Assembly: GCF_001683795.1 (NCBI RefSeq)
Contig: NZ_LIGX01000023.1
Span: 1 to 64,000, forward strand
DNA length: 64,000 nucleotides
Reading direction: 5' to 3'
Source: Neoakkermansia glycaniphila
GTDB lineage: Bacteria > Verrucomicrobiota > Verrucomicrobiia > Verrucomicrobiales > Akkermansiaceae
The position numbers were made by a program, and so were the translations under genes. Under the pieces are notes generated by a model. That model saw nothing but the letters and a program-made list of their open reading frames with translations. It was not told the DNA's origin and made no database searches. Shown here piece by piece: positions 867 through 33,771 of this stretch. Position 1 is the stretch's first letter; each line of letters opens with the position of its first letter.

Positions 867-2468
867 TCAACTGGCAGCCTCTTCCGCAGCCAAATCCAGA
901 GCCTGCTCGTACCAGACCGACCATATCCCAGCCAAACCCAGCACGGTATGGAACAGATTCCCGTGTTCCGCCGCCCCTCCCTGCCTCCGCGTCAAATTCT
1001 CCCACAACCGGGGATTCTTCTCCCGGTACGCCGAAGAACACCAGACCAGCAACGGCACCTGCCGCTGCTCCATCATCGACAGAGGCCCTCCATGCAGAAA
1101 ACGGCCACCCTCTCCGAAAGACTCTCCATGATCGGAACAATACACCAGCACCACATTCCTCTCCCGCGAAAACTCCATCAGCGAATCCAGAAAATAATCC
1201 AGATACAGAATCGAATTATCGTAGGCATTCACCAGATCGGGCTTCTGCATACTCAAATCCCGGTCATGCTCATCGGGAAGAAAAACGGAAAACCCTTCAC
1301 GCGGATACTTATTGGAATAATGGTAATGGGAACCCTTCGTCTGCAACACGATCAGCCTGTTCCCGTCGCCCTCAGCCAACACATCCTTCACACGCGACAA
1401 AATCCCATCCGCCAGAAACGAATCCGAAAAATACCGATCCTCGCAATCTTCAGTCAAAAGCATCATCGGCGGCGTCGCCTCCCGGCGCATATTGTAAAAA
1501 AACGCCGTCTGAAAACCATGCTTGCGGAACAGCGACACAAAAGAACCCACCGTCGGCACCCTCCGATCATTCGCCGCATTGGTCATCATCCCCACCACGC
1601 TCTTCTCCGTCGAAGTATCAAACGAAAGCACATTCGGAAAAACAGCCAGCTCACCCCGCTGCCTCCTTGCCGCCAAAAGCGGGGTCGTCCTGCGCTCGTA
1701 GCCGCACACCTGCAAATGATCTGCCCGCACCGACTCCCCCACGATGAAAATCACCGTCACCGGGCCTCCCCGCTGCACAAGGGAAGACGCCCCCTCCGCC
1801 GCCTTCGGCAGCTTCTTCAATGTAGCCAGCTCCCCACCTTTGCGAATCGTCTTCTGAGCATCCAAGACGGCAATCACAAAAGAATCATACGGCGGGCAAA
1901 TATAAATATAGGCAAACTCCACCATGCAGACCCATCCAGCCAGAAAAGCCGTCTCAGCCGCCGGAATCCACCTCCATGCGATTATTCGGCATCGAACGAT
2001 CAAAAAACGGCCGAGCAGATAAATCCCGGCATTCGCCAACACGCTCCCCGCGAGCCACATCGCATTCCCGAACGTCATATACGAGCGTGCCTCCTCCCAA
2101 TCCGTCCCGAGAAAAATACCGACATAGGAAGAAGGGTCGGAAATGCCCAGACAATAATACATATACATCCGCAGCGTCTGGTACAGCATGAACGGCACCC
2201 AAAACAGCATACCCCAAAACCTTGCCCGGATGAACAAATCCAGAGCAACGGCAAAAAACAAGGTGGCCACAGCGCCATTCCAACTCCACAGCGATGCCCA
2301 ATGCGCCCCAAGCGACCGATCGACCGAGGAGAAATCATCCGCCCCGAACGAAACCGTATACGTAGCATAATACAGGACAACTGCCACCATCAACACATAC
2401 AGCCAGTATGCCCATTGCGGCAACCGTTCTCTACGCACCAGCATCTTCCACCACTTCGTCATCGGCAT
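867..2468 (-). CDS. Phosphoethanolamine transferase-like inner-membrane sulfatase-fold protein (copy 1)
   Basis: This 533-residue protein has an N-terminal membrane domain of about five hydrophobic helices (residues ~20-200) followed by an alkaline-phosphatase/sulfatase-fold catalytic domain. The metal-site signature GESVRADH is at 244-251, a candidate nucleophile Thr lies in DTSTEKS (284-290), and the metal-ligand motif DHGESFGEGG is at 446-455, with a nearby LHGG. These match the EptA/CptA phosphoethanolamine transferase group, which decorates lipid A or other envelope glycans on the periplasmic side. The acceptor cannot be told from sequence. A second paralog (13810-15687) lies on the other strand. 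The gene is convergent with actB. The start could also be the Met two codons downstream. Confidence 0.85.
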   Translation of the reverse strand: MPMTKWWKMLVRRERLPQWAYWLYVLMVAVVLYYATYTVSFGADDFSSVDRSLGAHWASLWSWNGAVATLFFAVALDLFIRARFWGMLFWVPFMLYQTLRMYMYYCLGISDPSSYVGIFLGTDWEEARSYMTFGNAMWLAGSVLANAGIYLLGRFLIVRCRIIAWRWIPAAETAFLAGWVCMVEFAYIYICPPYDSFVIAVLDAQKTIRKGGELATLKKLPKAAEGASSLVQRGGPVTVIFIVGESVRADHLQVCGYERRTTPLLAARRQRGELAVFPNVLSFDTSTEKSVVGMMTNAANDRRVPTVGSFVSLFRKHGFQTAFFYNMRREATPPMMLLTEDCEDRYFSDSFLADGILSRVKDVLAEGDGNRLIVLQTKGSHYHYSNKYPREGFSVFLPDEHDRDLSMQKPDLVNAYDNSILYLDYFLDSLMEFSRERNVVLVYCSDHGESFGEGGRFLHGGPLSMMEQRQVPLLVWCSSAYREKNPRLWENLTRRQGGAAEHGNLFHTVLGLAGIWSVWYEQALDLAAEEAAS

Positions 2469-2697: not shown

Positions 2698-3510
2698 TCA
2701 TGCAGCCCTGCGACGGCGCCATGCCATGCAGGCCAGCCCGAGCAGGCTCAACGTTGCCGTAGCAGGTTCCGGCACAGCCGCCATTTCCGCCATCAAAGAA
2801 CCGACTTCGGTTTGGGAAAGAGCCTTGTCATGAACATACAGCTGTTGCACAGCCGCCTGCAGGCGGGAATTGTCCGTACGATCTCCACCGACATTCAGCT
2901 GCGTAATGCTGGTTCCGCCGAATTTCAGCCCTGTATTGGTGAAATAGGTGCTGCTATTGCCCACATAAAGGCGTGTTCCATCGGTAGTTCCTTCATAGCG
3001 CCCTGTCACCAGAGAGAGAGACAACGATCCCGTCGCAGGCACCGTATAGCCCAATGTTGCGTAATTGGTAATCGAGCCGCTGCTGTTCGGCTGCCAAAGC
3101 ATGCAAAGGCTACCGGTACTCGTAATACCCAGTCCCCATTGTAAACCTGCTGCATTGCTGGCCGAGAAAATGGTCGAAAACCCCGTGGTGGGGCGTACCA
3201 GTTTCGACGTATCCAGCATCAGAGAAACCGACATGGCAACACGCGTATTGCCGCTGCCGTATGGCATGCTGGACAAAGCCGCGCCGGAAAAATGGGCGGC
3301 CGATGTTCCGCGTGTGCGGAGCATACCGTACCAAATCTCATTGCCCGTGCCCAATGTGCCCGTAATGGAGGATTTTTGGGTACCCACATCTGCAGACAAA
3401 CCGTCGGCAAATTGCGTATAGCCGAAAACACTCTGATCCATCAAAACCCCGGCATAAACGGATGAACCTAAAGCGACCAATGCGCATAAAATAGAAATTG
3501 TTTTCTTCAT
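2698..3510 (-). CDS. Secreted PEP-CTERM protein, copy 1 (predicted phase-variable)
   Basis: This 270-residue exported protein has a signal peptide at residues 1-20 (MKKTISILCALVALGSSVYA). Its beta-rich, Ser/Gly/Thr-rich body resembles LamG/concanavalin-like folds. The C-terminal sorting tail at 246-270 is VPEPA, a hydrophobic helix, then RRRR. PEP-CTERM tails are recognised by exosortase-type enzymes; none is visible in this window. The Met at 3510 is chosen over one ten codons upstream because it begins the signal peptide and matches the paralog at 3921-4718. The promoter region is a 161-bp segment bounded by inverted repeats. In the present orientation no -35 element sits in front of the -10, so I predict the gene is silent as sequenced. 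Ligand and function are unknown. Confidence 0.9.
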   Translation of the reverse strand: MKKTISILCALVALGSSVYAGVLMDQSVFGYTQFADGLSADVGTQKSSITGTLGTGNEIWYGMLRTRGTSAAHFSGAALSSMPYGSGNTRVAMSVSLMLDTSKLVRPTTGFSTIFSASNAAGLQWGLGITSTGSLCMLWQPNSSGSITNYATLGYTVPATGSLSLSLVTGRYEGTTDGTRLYVGNSSTYFTNTGLKFGGTSITQLNVGGDRTDNSRLQAAVQQLYVHDKALSQTEVGSLMAEMAAVPEPATATLSLLGLACMAWRRRRAA

Positions 3511-3544
3511 ATCAATTAGAGAGAAAGTTGAATTGGACACGTGT

Positions 3545-3550
3545 ACCCTA
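3545..3550 (-). promoter_or_regulatory. Fixed -10 element (TAGGGT) of PEP-CTERM gene 1, lacking a -35 in this orientation
   Basis: TAGGGT on the minus strand directly abuts the proximal inverted repeat. It is the positional equivalent of TAGATT at the paralog (4758-4763). The hexamer 17 bp upstream is AGCAAT, one match to TTGACA. Inverting the adjacent segment would place the TTGACA of 3719-3724 at exactly 17 bp. The predicted 5' leader is about 28 nt. Confidence 0.6.
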
Positions 3551-3741
3551 GCGGATAATGAATCCTTATTGCTTGATCGTTGAATATATTTGGCGTAACA
3601 ATATGGATGTTTGATGATTGCTTTTTCCCATGAAAAACATCATTCCGGCGCTTGGAGCAAATAGTGTATCGTATTATTCTCTAAAACGTTCTTTTATCTG
3701 TTGTTTGAGCATTTCATGTTGACATCGGATTCATTATCCGC
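3551..3741. repeat. Inverted-repeat-bounded segment (putative invertible promoter, OFF orientation)
   Basis: A perfect 15-bp inverted repeat, GCGGATAATGAATCC at 3551-3565 and GGATTCATTATCCGC at 3727-3741, bounds 161 bp. TTGACA lies at 3719-3724 just inside the distal arm and points away from the gene on the plus strand, with CCAACA (no -10) 17 bp beyond. Each arm carries a GGAT-N5-ATCC dyad. There is no target-site duplication (outside bases are ccta and ccaa) and no internal similarity to the second copy, which argues against a MITE. The parallel copy at 4764-4960 supports a promoter-inversion reading. Confidence 0.75.
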
Positions 3742-3865
3742 CCAACATAAACCATCATCTTCTTCCTTTCATACTCAATCATTTCATTTCGAATCTCCAA
3801 AATAACAAAAATGAAATGCAAGAAAAATCAACGGAGCCAATTCGGCCCAACATCCCGGCAGGCAA

Positions 3866-3894
3866 CAGGGCGAACCGTCAAACGGTTCGCCCTG
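3866..3894. other. Strong hairpin downstream of PEP-CTERM gene 2
   Basis: A perfect 13-bp stem (CAGGGCGAACCGT, loop CAA, then its complement) about 27 bp past the stop of the second PEP-CTERM gene. It lacks a T-tract on either side, so it may be a weak or factor-aided terminator or an mRNA 3'-end stabiliser. The rest of the 3742-3920 gap shows nothing I recognise. Confidence 0.6.
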
Positions 3895-3920
3895 CGGCAC
3901 AAAACACTGTGGCAGCACCC

Positions 3921-4718
3921 TCAAGCCGCACGGCGACGGCGCAAGGCCATACAGGCAAGCCCAAGCAAACTCAATGTCGCTGTTGCCGGTTCCGGCACAA
4001 GCTCCATTTCCGCCATCAACGCGCCGATTTCCGCCTTGGAAAGAGACGTATTGTGTACATAAAGCTGCTGAACAGCCAAAGCCAAAGTATTGTTACCGGC
4101 ATTGTTCGCCCCGATACTCAGCGAATTGGCGCTCGTATTGGATTTCAGGCCGCCGGCATCAAAGAACACATCCGTTCCCCCGATATAAATACGGGCGCCT
4201 TCCGTGCCATCGGCCACACCATTGATGCGTCCCGTCACCATGGAAAGCATCAGCGAACCATTCGTCGGAAGCGTATAATCAATATCCGACCCCCAGGCAT
4301 TGCCACCCCACATCCAGCACAGCTTGCCGGATGACCGCACGCCAAGCCCCCATTGCGTCGCACCGCCCGTCGAAAAAATCGTTGCAATGCTGCCCGACGC
4401 AGTCGGCAACACCATCTTGGAGGTATCGACCATCATGGTTACCGTCATCATCATGCGGTTTCCGGTCGCATGGTTCTGGGTCATCGTCAATCCGGAAAAC
4501 ACAGCCCCGCCGGCACCATAAGTGCGAAGCATCTCGTACCACACCAGATTACCCGCACCCTTCGAACCTGTCACCTGTTCCTTGCTTGAACCGACATCGG
4601 CCTGCAAGGCATCCGAGAATTTCGTATAGCCGAACAGGCTTTGATCCATCACCGTCCCTGCCGAAACAGAAGTCGTGATGCCGGCCAAAGCACATAAAAT
4701 GGAGATAGTTTTTTTCAT
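3921..4718 (-). CDS. Secreted PEP-CTERM protein, copy 2 (predicted phase-variable)
   Basis: This 265-residue paralog of the gene at 2698-3510 has a near-identical signal peptide (MKKTISILCALAG..., residues 1-20) and a similar body containing LFGYTKFSDALQADVG and QQLYVHNTSLSKAEIGALMAEM. Its C-terminal PEP-CTERM tail at 241-265 is VPEPATATLSLLGLACMALR followed by RRR. The tandem arrangement suggests duplication together with its control region. In the present orientation it has a full promoter, TTGACA - 17 bp - TAGATT, whose spacer is the inverted repeat, so I predict it is expressed as sequenced. It is probably a surface or matrix protein. The ligand is unknown. Confidence 0.9.
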   Translation of the reverse strand: MKKTISILCALAGITTSVSAGTVMDQSLFGYTKFSDALQADVGSSKEQVTGSKGAGNLVWYEMLRTYGAGGAVFSGLTMTQNHATGNRMMMTVTMMVDTSKMVLPTASGSIATIFSTGGATQWGLGVRSSGKLCWMWGGNAWGSDIDYTLPTNGSLMLSMVTGRINGVADGTEGARIYIGGTDVFFDAGGLKSNTSANSLSIGANNAGNNTLALAVQQLYVHNTSLSKAEIGALMAEMELVPEPATATLSLLGLACMALRRRRAA

Positions 4719-4757
4719 ATGAAGTAAGAATGATAAGTAAAATTGTTCTTGAAATCT

Positions 4758-4786
4758 AATCTAGCGGATTTGGAATCCTGTGTCAA
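4758..4786 (-). promoter_or_regulatory. Promoter of PEP-CTERM gene 2 (TTGACA-17-TAGATT) built across a recombination-like repeat
   Basis: On the minus strand the -35 TTGACA (4786-4781) and the -10 TAGATT (4763-4758) are separated by exactly 17 bp. Sixteen of those bases are the proximal inverted repeat AGGATTCCAAATCCGC. The -35 is inside the repeat-bounded segment and the -10 is outside it, so inversion would detach them. After inversion the hexamer at -35 would be AGAACA. Confidence 0.75.
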
Positions 4787-4960
4787 CAGAAAAACACACG
4801 AAAGTTTCAATCAGTAAACGATTTAACAATGTATCCTGATACAAGAATCGCATTTTCCGGGAATAATATTCTATCGAATCCATCCCATCAAATGCGTTGA
4901 CTCTTTATTATTTAACATAAATAGAAAACTCATGTCAAGAACATAGGATTCCAAATCCGC
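4764..4960. repeat. Inverted-repeat-bounded segment (putative invertible promoter, ON orientation)
   Basis: A perfect 16-bp inverted repeat, GCGGATTTGGAATCCT at 4764-4779 and AGGATTCCAAATCCGC at 4945-4960, bounds 165 bp of AT-rich DNA. The arm has the form CTAGCGGAT-NNN-GAATCCT seen at 3548-3566, but the central triplet is TTG here and AAT there. Each locus's two arms match each other perfectly. The remainder of the gap to 5032 is AT-rich with no gene. Confidence 0.75.
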
Positions 4961-5032
4961 AAGATCTGAAAATCACCATATAAAACTGAAAGCAAACAAA
5001 TAAACACACTAACAACAAAATACTTATTTGGC

Positions 5033-5066
5033 AAAAAAACACGCGCCGGAACATGCCGGCGCGTGT
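5033..5066 (-). terminator. Intrinsic terminator of the GH36-like gene
   Basis: An 11-bp GC-rich stem (ACACGCGCCGG / CCGGCGCGTGT) with a 6-nt loop. On the minus strand it is followed by a run of seven T residues, about 25 bp past the stop codon at 5092. Confidence 0.9.
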
Positions 5067-5091
5067 GGCAAATCAAATCGTATAACCTTTA

Positions 5092-7155
5092 TTATTCCGG
5101 GGTCGCTTCAAGTACGACCACCTCGTAGGGTTGCAGCGTCAGGCTCACGGGTTTGCCCGCTTCGATCCTGTCCACCGGAAGCTTGTCGCCCTTCGGGGAA
5201 GACAGCTTGTAGCGCAAGGGAGCGCCGACAGGCAGTTCGAAGACAGAGGCGGCTTCGAAACTCCACGTCTGAGGCACGGAAGACGGATTGCGCAGCGTCA
5301 GAATCCCCTTTTCGGGAGACCATGCGGCCCAGCCGTACACATCGAGCTTCGCCGGATCTCCTCCGACCCAATGGGTATCGACCAGGGTTCCTTCATTATT
5401 CCGCGCCCACTTGGCAGCCGCGGCCAGCGTATCCCATTCCGGCTGGGTCAGCAGCGACGGAGTAATGTACATCTCCTGCATCTGCGTGCCGGAACCGAAG
5501 CCCGACCAGATTTCATTCGTCAGGTCGTTGCCTTCCACCTTCTGGAGATTGCGGGCGCGCTTCGTATAGATCACGCCGTGCGTCATCAGCGAGTTGATCG
5601 GGAACAAGGGAGAAACAGCTACGTTATTCGCATAAATCTGCCCATCGCGGAACGTCATCCACTGGTTGCGGTCGCTGCCTTCGCCAATGAACTCGTGGTC
5701 CCAGCCGCCGCGCCAGATGGAATCGGCAATACCGAACCAGAAGGGCGAAGCCCAGGTACCCGTCGTCAGATTCACATACAAATCGGGTCGTTCCTTGCGA
5801 AGACCGTCGATCAGATTGATAATCGCCTCGAAATCGCTGGCAAACTTGCTGCCCGGAATCAGACGCTCCACGCCGGAAGTGCCGTCGAGCTTGAAATGGT
5901 TGATACCGTTTTCACGGATCATGTGCAGGCACATATCGCGGAAATGGTCATAATACTTCGGCCCGGCAAGAGCAAAGCCGCTCTCGTTCGTCTCGAACTT
6001 GCCGTTGGCGGCAGCCAAACGGTTTTCCTTCGGTTTGCCGTAGCCGCCCCACGGGGAGAACCATACGCCCGGAGCCGCACCGTACGATTCGGCGAGCTTG
6101 CGAATATCGCGGAATTCGTTCGGCAGCCCCTTATGGAACTTCCAGAGAGTCTGCGTATCGTCCCATCCGTCGTCGAACAGGAAGGAATCCAGCACCACGC
6201 CGCGCTTGCGCACCAGCTCCTCGCCGAACGTCTGCACCACGTTCATCGCCGCCTTCTCATCGTAGGGATCGAAATAGCCGATATCGTACCAGCTGTTGTA
6301 ATTCAGGAAAGCGCCATACGGCCTCGCACGCTCTTCATTGAGATAGGCGAGCTGGAACGTGCGGCGAAGCTGGGAAGGATTCGACACGCCGAGCACGGAA
6401 GAAACCGTCGTTGCGGCACGGTTGGGAAGATCCGTCTTGTGCTTGATCTTCGCCGTCACCCGGCCCTTGTCCGCCTCATTCACGGAAAGAGGATGTTCCA
6501 CCCCGGCAAACAGGCGGCGACCTGCGGCCACTACGGGAGCTCCCTTCACGGAACCGACCACCTCCGCTTCGGGAGCGGCGAAATCAAGCACCGTAATCTC
6601 GCGGGCAGGCAGGGAACCCTGCTCGGGCAGAATCGTCAGCCCAATACGCACATAAGGATGGCCTTCGCGCACTTCGGCCCACCACGTCAGTTGCAGGCCG
6701 CTATCCGTCTTCGCGAAAGGAAGAGTCAGGCGGGAGCCGTTCGCACGTTCCACCAGGCGGCGCGCCTTCGGATCGCCGGGAATATCCGTCTTCGTCAGCT
6801 TCCCTGCCGCCAGATCGGAAGCACGCAACACATGAGTCGATTCCTTGACGACCTCCTTGCTCAGGAACTCGTCCGGCTCGGAATCGGCAATCACAAGAGA
6901 AAAGAAATCGGGGCCGAGGTCGTATGTACGTCCGTTCAGCTTATCCGTGAAAATCATATTGGCCAGCTTGCGGCCTGCGGTCTGCACGCGCAGTTCCACG
7001 AGATCGTTGGCCAGCACGCCATCGGCCTGCTGGCTGGACACATTCGCGCCAGAAGCAGGAGCATTGGCTGCGTCAGGAGTGGAAGCGGCACAAAGCACGC
7101 CCGTACCCATCATGCCGAGAGACAACAATCCGGTCAGAATCTTTGATGAAGTCAT
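5092..7155 (-). CDS. Secreted clan GH-D (GH36-like) alpha-galactosidase-type glycoside hydrolase
   Basis: This 687-residue protein has a signal peptide (about residues 1-23). An N-terminal beta-sandwich precedes a TIM-barrel containing FDDGWDD (327-333), GVWFSPWGG (363-371), HFKLDGTSG (420-428, candidate nucleophile Asp424) and GSDRNQWMTFRD (493-504, candidate acid/base Asp). A C-terminal beta domain follows. The layout matches GH36/GH27 alpha-galactosidases and alpha-N-acetylgalactosaminidases, which remove terminal sugars from glycans. Some relatives carry misleading 'enterotoxin' labels in databases. With the fucosidase at 51.7 kb it fits a mucin- or host-glycan-degrading lifestyle. The exact sugar specificity cannot be read from the sequence. 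Confidence 0.82.
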   Translation of the reverse strand: MTSSKILTGLLSLGMMGTGVLCAASTPDAANAPASGANVSSQQADGVLANDLVELRVQTAGRKLANMIFTDKLNGRTYDLGPDFFSLVIADSEPDEFLSKEVVKESTHVLRASDLAAGKLTKTDIPGDPKARRLVERANGSRLTLPFAKTDSGLQLTWWAEVREGHPYVRIGLTILPEQGSLPAREITVLDFAAPEAEVVGSVKGAPVVAAGRRLFAGVEHPLSVNEADKGRVTAKIKHKTDLPNRAATTVSSVLGVSNPSQLRRTFQLAYLNEERARPYGAFLNYNSWYDIGYFDPYDEKAAMNVVQTFGEELVRKRGVVLDSFLFDDGWDDTQTLWKFHKGLPNEFRDIRKLAESYGAAPGVWFSPWGGYGKPKENRLAAANGKFETNESGFALAGPKYYDHFRDMCLHMIRENGINHFKLDGTSGVERLIPGSKFASDFEAIINLIDGLRKERPDLYVNLTTGTWASPFWFGIADSIWRGGWDHEFIGEGSDRNQWMTFRDGQIYANNVAVSPLFPINSLMTHGVIYTKRARNLQKVEGNDLTNEIWSGFGSGTQMQEMYITPSLLTQPEWDTLAAAAKWARNNEGTLVDTHWVGGDPAKLDVYGWAAWSPEKGILTLRNPSSVPQTWSFEAASVFELPVGAPLRYKLSSPKGDKLPVDRIEAGKPVSLTLQPYEVVVLEATPE

Positions 7156-32865: not shown

Positions 32866-33771
32866 TCATCCTCTCGGGTGAAATCTGCGGTGCAACTCGA
32901 TCAGGCGCTTCTGCTCCACATGCGTATAAACCTGCGTCGTCGCCAGATCCGCATGCCCCAGCAATTCCTGAATCACGCGCAGATCGGCACCGTTCTCCAG
33001 AAGATGCGTAGCAAACGAATGCCGCATAATGTGGGGGAACACATGCTCCGCAATACCTGCCTGTTCCGCTCGCTCCTTCAGAATTTGGCGAATCCTCTCG
33101 CGCGTCAAACGGCCGCCCCTACGATTCAAAAACACATACGGAGACCTCCTGTCTCCCAACAGCATACCGCGGGCTTTCCGGCGGTAAACAGACAGACACT
33201 CCATCGCCGAACTTCCCAAAGGCACGAAACGCGTCTTGCCACCCTTCCCCGTCACGCGAATAAACTTCTCCTGCTCGTCGACCTGCTCATTCCTGAGATT
33301 CGTCAGCTCGCTCACACGCAGCCCGCTGCCATACAGCACCTCAAGAATGGCACGATCCCTCGCGCCGAAAGGCTCTTCATCCAAAGGAACGGATTCCAAC
33401 AGACGCGCCACAAGCCCTTCCGGCAACGTCTCCGGAATCGTCCTGCCCATCCTCACATTATCCAGAAACATCGCCGGATCCTTCCCGATCAACTGCCGGG
33501 AAAACAGAAACCGGAAAAAAATCCTCACATGCACACTGGCCACACGTAAAGACGATGGAGCCAACCTCTGCCCCATCTCGCCTAAAAAGGCAGACAGATC
33601 TCCCTCTTCCACAGCAGGAATGGCAACTCCGCGCTCCTCCAGAAAACGAAGCAGATGCTCAAGGCTCTGCCTCACGGAAAGCTGGTAGTTGACACTCAGG
33701 CCGCGTTCCGCCGCCAGATACAGGACGAACTGCTCTACGAGCGATTGCTGCGCATCAGCCTCCATGGCCAC
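32866..33771 (-). CDS. xerD: Tyrosine recombinase, XerC/XerD type
   Basis: This 301-residue site-specific recombinase has an N-terminal SAM-like core-binding domain (to ~residue 105) and a C-terminal catalytic domain. Counting from the Met two codons downstream (33765), the full catalytic set is visible: Arg150 (GSGLRVSEL), Lys174 region (GKGGKTRF), His245 and Arg248 (HIMRHSFATHLL), His271 (LLGHADL) and the nucleophile Tyr280 (TTQVYTHV). Xer proteins resolve chromosome dimers at dif and are often recruited by other elements. It is the only recombinase in the window, so it is a candidate to act in trans on the promoter repeats at 3.6 and 4.8 kb. A dedicated recombinase elsewhere is just as possible. 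Confidence 0.92.
   Translation of the reverse strand: MAMEADAQQSLVEQFVLYLAAERGLSVNYQLSVRQSLEHLLRFLEERGVAIPAVEEGDLSAFLGEMGQRLAPSSLRVASVHVRIFFRFLFSRQLIGKDPAMFLDNVRMGRTIPETLPEGLVARLLESVPLDEEPFGARDRAILEVLYGSGLRVSELTNLRNEQVDEQEKFIRVTGKGGKTRFVPLGSSAMECLSVYRRKARGMLLGDRRSPYVFLNRRGGRLTRERIRQILKERAEQAGIAEHVFPHIMRHSFATHLLENGADLRVIQELLGHADLATTQVYTHVEQKRLIELHRRFHPRG

Follow-up and report, generated by a model that had tools for sequence, protein, structure and literature searches.

Predicted inversion of half promoters ahead of two PEP-CTERM genes in Neoakkermansia glycaniphila

Within a stretch of 64,000 nucleotides (nt) of the Neoakkermansia glycaniphila genome (assembly GCF_001683795.1, contig NZ_LIGX01000023.1, positions 1 to 64,000; hereafter the window), two genes for LamG-like PEP-CTERM proteins stand in tandem on the minus strand with one inverted repeat ahead of each start, and we predict that the segments bounded by these repeats, 3551–3741 and 4764–4960, invert and in doing so move only half of a promoter. 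In the mechanism proposed here the -35 sits immediately within one arm of each segment and a -10-like hexamer is fixed outside the gene-side arm. Acting, as predicted, within the arms, a site-specific tyrosine recombinase would bring the two halves together or separate them, and this would likely turn the gene on or off. The crossover would fall in the 5-nt centre of the arm core GGAT-N5-ATCC, halfway along the 17-nt promoter spacer; the enzyme would come from a recombinase lineage with a member on contig C32 of this genome (G000), and expression would follow orientation. Judging from the sequence, we put the probability that both genes are switched by such half-promoter inversion at about 80%.

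Both repeats are exact, with arms of 15 nt separated by 161 nt ahead of gene 1 and arms of 16 nt separated by 165 nt ahead of gene 2 (Table 1), just as an earlier model-made reading of the letters alone (the sequence-only reading) had placed them, and the two genes that it took for PEP-CTERM paralogues both score over the Pfam cut-off for the PEP-CTERM signal. The GGAT-N5-ATCC core is present in all four arms, and in each pair one arm has TTGACA exactly 2 nt inside it; the consensus suggested earlier, CTAGCGGAT-NNN-GAATCCT, proved too narrow to describe this common core. As the sequence-only reading had also proposed, the arm within 4758–4786 forms the 17-nt spacer between TTGACA inside the segment and TAGATT outside it on the gene side, and TTGACA-17-TAGATT (minus strand) is the top promoter-like match, at 10/12, of the four found in 3400–5100, a count no higher than chance (shuffle mean 3.2). 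The two loci are in opposite arrangements, with TTGACA at the gene-side arm for gene 2 and at the far arm for gene 1, the latter having escaped the earlier reading. Flipping 3551–3741 in silico places TTGACA-17-TAGGGT ahead of gene 1, and flipping 4764–4960 removes the gene 2 promoter, leaving a weak 8/12 match that lies partly within the arm. Inverted perfect 15-mers 70–320 nt apart occur in the window at these two loci only and in none of 40 first-order Markov versions of it, whereas TTGACANNGGATNNNNNATCC, with two exact occurrences in the window, gave at least two matches at no more than two mismatches in 6 of 100 shuffles.

Table 1. Positions of the genes, repeats and promoter halves within the window
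Feature	Position	Strand	Remark
Gene 1	2698..3510	-	LamG-like PEP-CTERM protein, 270 aa from ATG at 3510; PF13385 and PF07589 over cut-off
-10-like TAGGGT, segment 1	3545..3550	-	fixed, outside gene-side arm; 3/6 to TATAAT, fits TAnnnT
Segment 1	3551..3741		predicted to invert; arrangement read as OFF for gene 1
Segment 1, gene-side arm	3551..3565		core GGATN5ATCC
Segment 1, -35 TTGACA	3719..3724	+	at far arm, directed away from gene 1
Segment 1, far arm	3727..3741
Perfect inverted repeat	3866..3894	-	13-nt arms, hairpin-like; behind gene 2, between gene 2 and segment 1
Gene 2	3921..4718	-	paralogue of gene 1, 265 aa, LamG-like; PEP-CTERM signal over Pfam cut-off
-10 TAGATT, segment 2	4758..4763	-	fixed, outside gene-side arm
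Segment 2	4764..4960		predicted to invert; arrangement read as ON for gene 2
Segment 2, gene-side arm	4764..4779		with 4780, the 17-nt promoter spacer
Segment 2, -35 TTGACA	4781..4786	-	at gene-side arm
Segment 2, far arm	4945..4960
Hairpin	5039..5066	-	intrinsic-terminator-like; behind upstream gene (5092-7155), ahead of segment 2

The whole genome was surveyed with the core pattern alone and with a TTGACA-plus-core pattern, followed by an inverted-repeat search in the surrounding stretches. After omission of four segments (L069/L070) on the redundant contigs C1/C18, 28 distinct segments were counted, a lower bound, as the finder drops pairs that are seen otherwise (L065 6764–6928; L078 3013–3177). 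On the better arm, 27 of the 28 carry a hexamer matching TTGACA at five or more of six positions 2–3 nt inside the core (at exactly 2 nt in 23), and on the other arm none does. The same asymmetry appears in a bias control restricted to the 18 segments that can be found by the core pattern alone, TTGACA not being required: the -35 is present in exactly one arm in 17, in neither in one and in both in none. The other half of the promoter was sought at the 20 loci with a called gene start within 350 nt on one side only, where TAnnnT stands 1–3 nt outside the gene-side arm in 16 cases and outside the far arm in two (Fisher p = 1.7e-5). Ten of these loci are arranged as ON and ten as OFF, and since the gene-side TAnnnT is equally frequent in both classes (8 of 10 each, by hand count), the -10 stays with the gene. 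A PEP-CTERM match at E ≤ 0.01 was obtained for 14 of the 22 segment-neighbour proteins tested, which are part of all such neighbours (12 of 20 besides the window genes; several below the Pfam cut-off), and two of the 22 bear autotransporter-like PMP repeats. Contigs C1 and C18 (L051/L070, L052/L069) hold mirrored copies of segments in the same arrangement, which is probably a matter of draft-assembly redundancy; the contamination listed for the assembly is 5.13%.

Because both finders demand exact seeds, identity of the N5 centre within a pair is built into their output, and a separate half-site test was therefore made in which, for each exact TTGACR-core site, a partner was sought 60–340 nt inwards with any N5 allowed. 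In the window genome all 16 sites had one partner each and the N5 matched in all 16; in relatives, 71 of 79 sites had a partner, with matching N5 in all 71. Within each pair the N5 is the same, and it varies from locus to locus, a combination typical of the overlap region of tyrosine recombinases. In GGAT-N5-ATCC we thus find what is expected of a tyrosine-recombinase site, inverted half-sites round a variable overlap that is the same in both members of a pair.

The pattern extends well beyond this genome. Of the 76 genus genomes, 30 contain TTGACR-NN-GGATN5ATCC without mismatch, with 7–41 sites in 14 of them and 1–2 in 16, and the reversed-pattern control gave no match in any of the 76; across the taxonomic order, TTGACRNNGGATNNNNNATCCGCTA at no more than one mismatch occurred in 20 of 45 genus genomes as against 2 of 243 others (one site each). 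In a one-genome-per-species collection, which may omit the window's own genome, the complete ON pattern was found in eight stretches, seven from Akkermansia/Akkermansiaceae and one from a Chloroflexi bin. Among 72 pattern stretches from genome contigs scanned with the gene 2 protein, no relative was found, although the window genome's own records may be omitted there. Evidence for inversion comes from orthologous loci, which were chosen by shared cores and are not a random sample: of 15 groups in which both flanks and the segment could be aligned (hand count), six show opposite segment orientations, relative to the flanks, in different species, for example G001/G012 (96% over 142 nt) and G004/G005 (83% over 220 nt), and the other nine show a single orientation among the genomes compared. 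L228, whose flank matches L266/L267 while its segment does not, was left out of this count, and L266/L267 were included. As a side observation, the site-rich genome G045 has 41 exact sites, and nearly all of those among the matches listed share one core, GGATTCAAAATCC, several lying close to the end of a contig; loci with the same overlap could recombine with one another. At its locus L107, TA followed by a -10-like stretch stands outside both arms.

An experimental point of comparison is offered by the cps1 inverton of A. muciniphila MucT (G004), for which two orientations and flipping that tracks the capsule have been described by PCR digest and quantitative PCR (available text of PMC13343947). 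The wza gene lies in the deposited MucT genome exactly at the coordinates of Table 1 of that paper, and TTGACA stands 2 nt inside the far arm of the inverton, an orientation that our model reads as OFF for cps1. With TTGACA well placed but a poor hexamer (TAATTA) on the gene side, cps1 speaks for the position of the -35 and not for that of the -10. A time-dependent MucT inverton has also been published at 2092093–2092283 (PMC11892184, in the text available). The sole repeat in the stretch fetched around these coordinates lies about 2 kb off, at 2094062–2094245, with TTGACG, and we do not claim that the two are the same; by Pfam, neither of the two tested protein neighbours of this repeat is an autotransporter.

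As to the enzyme, tyrosine recombinases were clustered from five genomes (G000, G001, G003, G004 and G009, some weaker G003 matches being left out). At 40% identity three clusters span all five, two of them Xer-like and the third a family of 337–382 aa with 11 members, and the latter lineage is our best candidate for the invertase. One orthologue of this family, 90–100% identical, is present in 12 genomes, all of them among the 14 that are site-rich, and in none of the 62 site-poor or site-free ones; outside these 12 genomes the best-scoring match to it is 46% identical. Moreover, 12 of the 16 site-poor genomes having a site carry a family member in the roughly 3-kb locus round it, one locus per genome. 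This physical linkage is the stronger argument, since co-occurrence could reflect ancestry. At nine of these site-poor loci (L101, L102, L104, L105, L112, L113, L114, L117 and L118) a single segment adjoins a recombinase gene. There TTGACR is found at the recombinase-side arm, and outside the other arm stands a hexamer resembling a -10 (TATGCT, TATACT or similar), an arrangement as if OFF for the opposite gene.

The window genome itself has an open 337-aa recombinase frame of the candidate lineage (G000:C32:38262–39254) and a second family member on contig C30; in MucT the orthologue of the C32 gene lies at 2006220–2007302. Both products match phage integrase families, that of C30 also matches PF00589, and the solved structures closest to the C32 product, XerA and Int, are weak matches. 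The C30 gene directly follows a segment (L124, 2467–2674) whose core, GTATTACAAATAC, differs while the spacing to TTGACA is unchanged; likewise, L205 of G001 (576–751) has the core GCATTATGAATG with recombinase family genes nearby, and in both segments TTGACA is kept 2–3 nt from the differing core, in one arm. Because the spacing is preserved at different cores, the split design may be independent of the sequence of the site. The Xer recombinases were considered for the same role; among the matches listed, PF00589 is found at E ≤ 1e-38 in all 76 genomes, site-poor ones too, a misfit with the distribution of the sites that falls short of exclusion. Two Xer-like recombinases are encoded in the window genome, one of them within the window (32869–33771, minus strand, PF00589), and a further Xer-like group seen in G001, G003 and G046 was not found in this genome.

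Several observations weigh against half-promoter inversion as we propose it. In the window, the predicted ON promoter of gene 1 has a weak -10 (TAGGGT, 3/6), and in the wider survey one of the 28 segments reaches only 4/6 to TTGACA; gene starts were called with a home-made codon model. At cps1 the gene-side TAATTA matches TATAAT at 2/6 and does not fit TAnnnT, the flipped segment contains other promoter-like matches scoring equal or better (one of 10/12), and the segment lies 425 nt from wza with an ftsK-like gene starting on its other side; elsewhere in MucT, a core-bearing repeat at 2486469–2486648 (L217 6471–6648) has no -35 in either arm. Among relatives, eight of the 79 sites lack a partner (two of them near contig ends), a near -35 is present on both arms in 3 of 71 segments, and gene-side TAnnnT occurs in 9 of 26 ortholog representatives as against 2 of 26 for the far arm, counted with one row per ortholog group and gene starts within 200 nt only. 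Most segments of relatives were selected by TTGACR, so that their -35 is no test. With regard to the enzyme, a second non-Xer integrase cluster (377–441 aa) also spans all five genomes at 30% identity, the distribution of the recombinase at 90% identity or more may do no more than trace one clade, and the window genome's nearest copy of it is 46% identical.

Keeping these points in mind, the data may be compared with what an ordinary invertible promoter would give, in which the whole promoter inside the segment is turned as a unit and the TTGACA at the arm is incidental. This layout has been described for ipuS of E. coli (PMC6083910) and for Bacteroides fragilis (PMC4747536), in each case in the text available, and the internal promoter-like matches of the flipped cps1 segment, together with its poor TTGACA/TAATTA pair, would suit it. 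We nevertheless regard it as unlikely for the window genes, since a TTGACA that lies 2–3 nt from the core and points outwards must have its -10, at 16–18 nt, outside the segment, precisely where TAnnnT is found on the gene side at 16 of 20 loci and on the far side at two. Within the 150 nt ahead of both window genes, moreover, neither orientation yielded a better promoter.

Alternatively, the repeats could be static, fossils or hairpin structures without present inversion in the window strain, as the divergence (46%) of its nearest copy of the candidate recombinase might suggest. Partners with an identical N5 at 16 of 16 exact sites, in spite of the variation between loci, are difficult to reconcile with such decay, as are the ten ON and ten OFF loci, the open 337-aa recombinase frame and the inverted orthologues of relatives, and we consider static repeats quite improbable. 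Still less probable, in our judgement, is that TTGACA serves as an accessory recombinase-binding element giving the site polarity. Its fixed distance of 2–3 nt from the core at 27 of 28 loci, in one arm only, would be accounted for in this way; however, the hexamer is the sigma-70 -35 consensus, it stands 16–18 nt from a TAnnnT that is mostly gene-side whatever the orientation, and its presence 2–3 nt from the differing cores on C30 and in L205 is less expected of a shared binding element. Inversion of a half promoter is the reading that we retain, and of the -35 swapping put forward by the sequence-only reading, the one-arm -35 at a fixed distance, the -10 kept on the gene side and the occurrence of segments in both orientations are borne out by the sequence of the window genome or of its relatives, the switching itself being predicted.

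Much of the biological setting has been published. Invertons of A. muciniphila with the motif CGGATT..AATCCG, 'inverton group 138', were described by Jiang et al. 2019, as cited in the available text of PMC13343947 and PMC11892184. According to the same two sources, they flip in mice and in culture, as seen from MucT reads, and are enriched for PEP-CTERM neighbours and contain a promoter motif, which missed the cut-off for upstream enrichment (PMC11892184). The segments studied here share the repeat core of group 138 and, like its members, stand in front of surface genes and have PEP-CTERM neighbours, the arms of segment 2 having CGGATT...AATCC and those of segment 1 CGGATA...AATCC, one base off the published motif. 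The sequence-only reading had presented the design as one it did not recognise, and the system is less unknown than this implies, since Akkermansia invertons with the motif beside PEP-CTERM genes were already in print; as far as the split geometry goes, the remark stands. The available accounts of group 138 speak of promoters or a promoter motif in the invertons and do not state that only a -35 is contained or that the repeat is the spacer. Likewise, no description of a promoter spacer as an inversion site was found in the literature searched (without supplements), though Jiang et al. 2019, outside that search, might state it. The new part of our proposal is thus the predicted split, whereby the promoter spacer doubles as the recombination site and inversion moves only the -35. 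A promoter motif that is only half a promoter within the segment could also explain why it missed the upstream cut-off in PMC11892184.

Comparison with other switches brings out the same difference. Inversion of promoters by FimB/FimE-type tyrosine recombinases is known from fimS/hyxS of E. coli. The ipuS element, too, is inverted by tyrosine recombinases at short inverted repeats upstream of a surface gene. Its mapped start and both predicted hexamers, -35 and -10, fall inside it (PMC6083910, available text), whereas here the halves flank the predicted crossover. At neither window locus do both hexamers lie between the repeats, as the -10-like one is outside; we are therefore dealing with a predicted invertible promoter that yet fails the classical defining feature, a whole promoter between the repeats. 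Promoters formed at the junctions of insertion sequence circles (IS3/IS911 type) resemble it in that -35 and -10 are on separate ends and are joined by recombination at about 17 bp, and differ in that they are made by a transposase on excised circles and are not a reversible chromosomal switch. Bacteroides fragilis also controls surface products by invertible promoters, with one invertase for local and distant invertons, but there the Bacteroides -7 promoter element is within the invertible fragment (PMC4747536, in the part available). Closest in its effect on the spacer is aadE* of Mycoplasma bovirhinis, where, according to the available text of PMC8614714, inversion between repeats alters the -35/-10 spacer and two -35 bases; the repeats are 155 bp long, however, a promoter exists in both forms, expression is little affected, and it is not a dedicated switch.

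If the recombination site is indeed promoter spacer DNA, binding by RNA polymerase should shut out the recombinase and vice versa, and from the 17-nt stretch that they have in common one would expect transcription to feed back on switching. A genus-wide standard, in which the site of a dedicated tyrosine-invertase family is the 17-nt sigma-70 spacer, the -35 alone moves, the -10 remains with each gene, polymerase and invertase compete for this DNA and an active promoter thereby protects its ON state, can be put forward only tentatively, and we would not yet favour it. Should the half-promoter mechanism be true, it would give a base-pair account of switching for dozens of surface proteins in a mucus-dwelling genus, and the ON or OFF state could be read from a genome, a read set or a metagenome by which arm bears the -35.

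With respect to the surroundings of the two units, the hairpin ahead of segment 2 and the repeat behind gene 2 both lie between units, so that gene 1 and gene 2 look independently transcribed; the repeat at 3866–3894 is absent from the list given by the terminator scan. Further along the minus strand, window positions 867–2468 encode a sulfatase-fold protein (PF00884) that resembles phosphoethanolamine transferases, at scores below the NCBIfam cut-offs.

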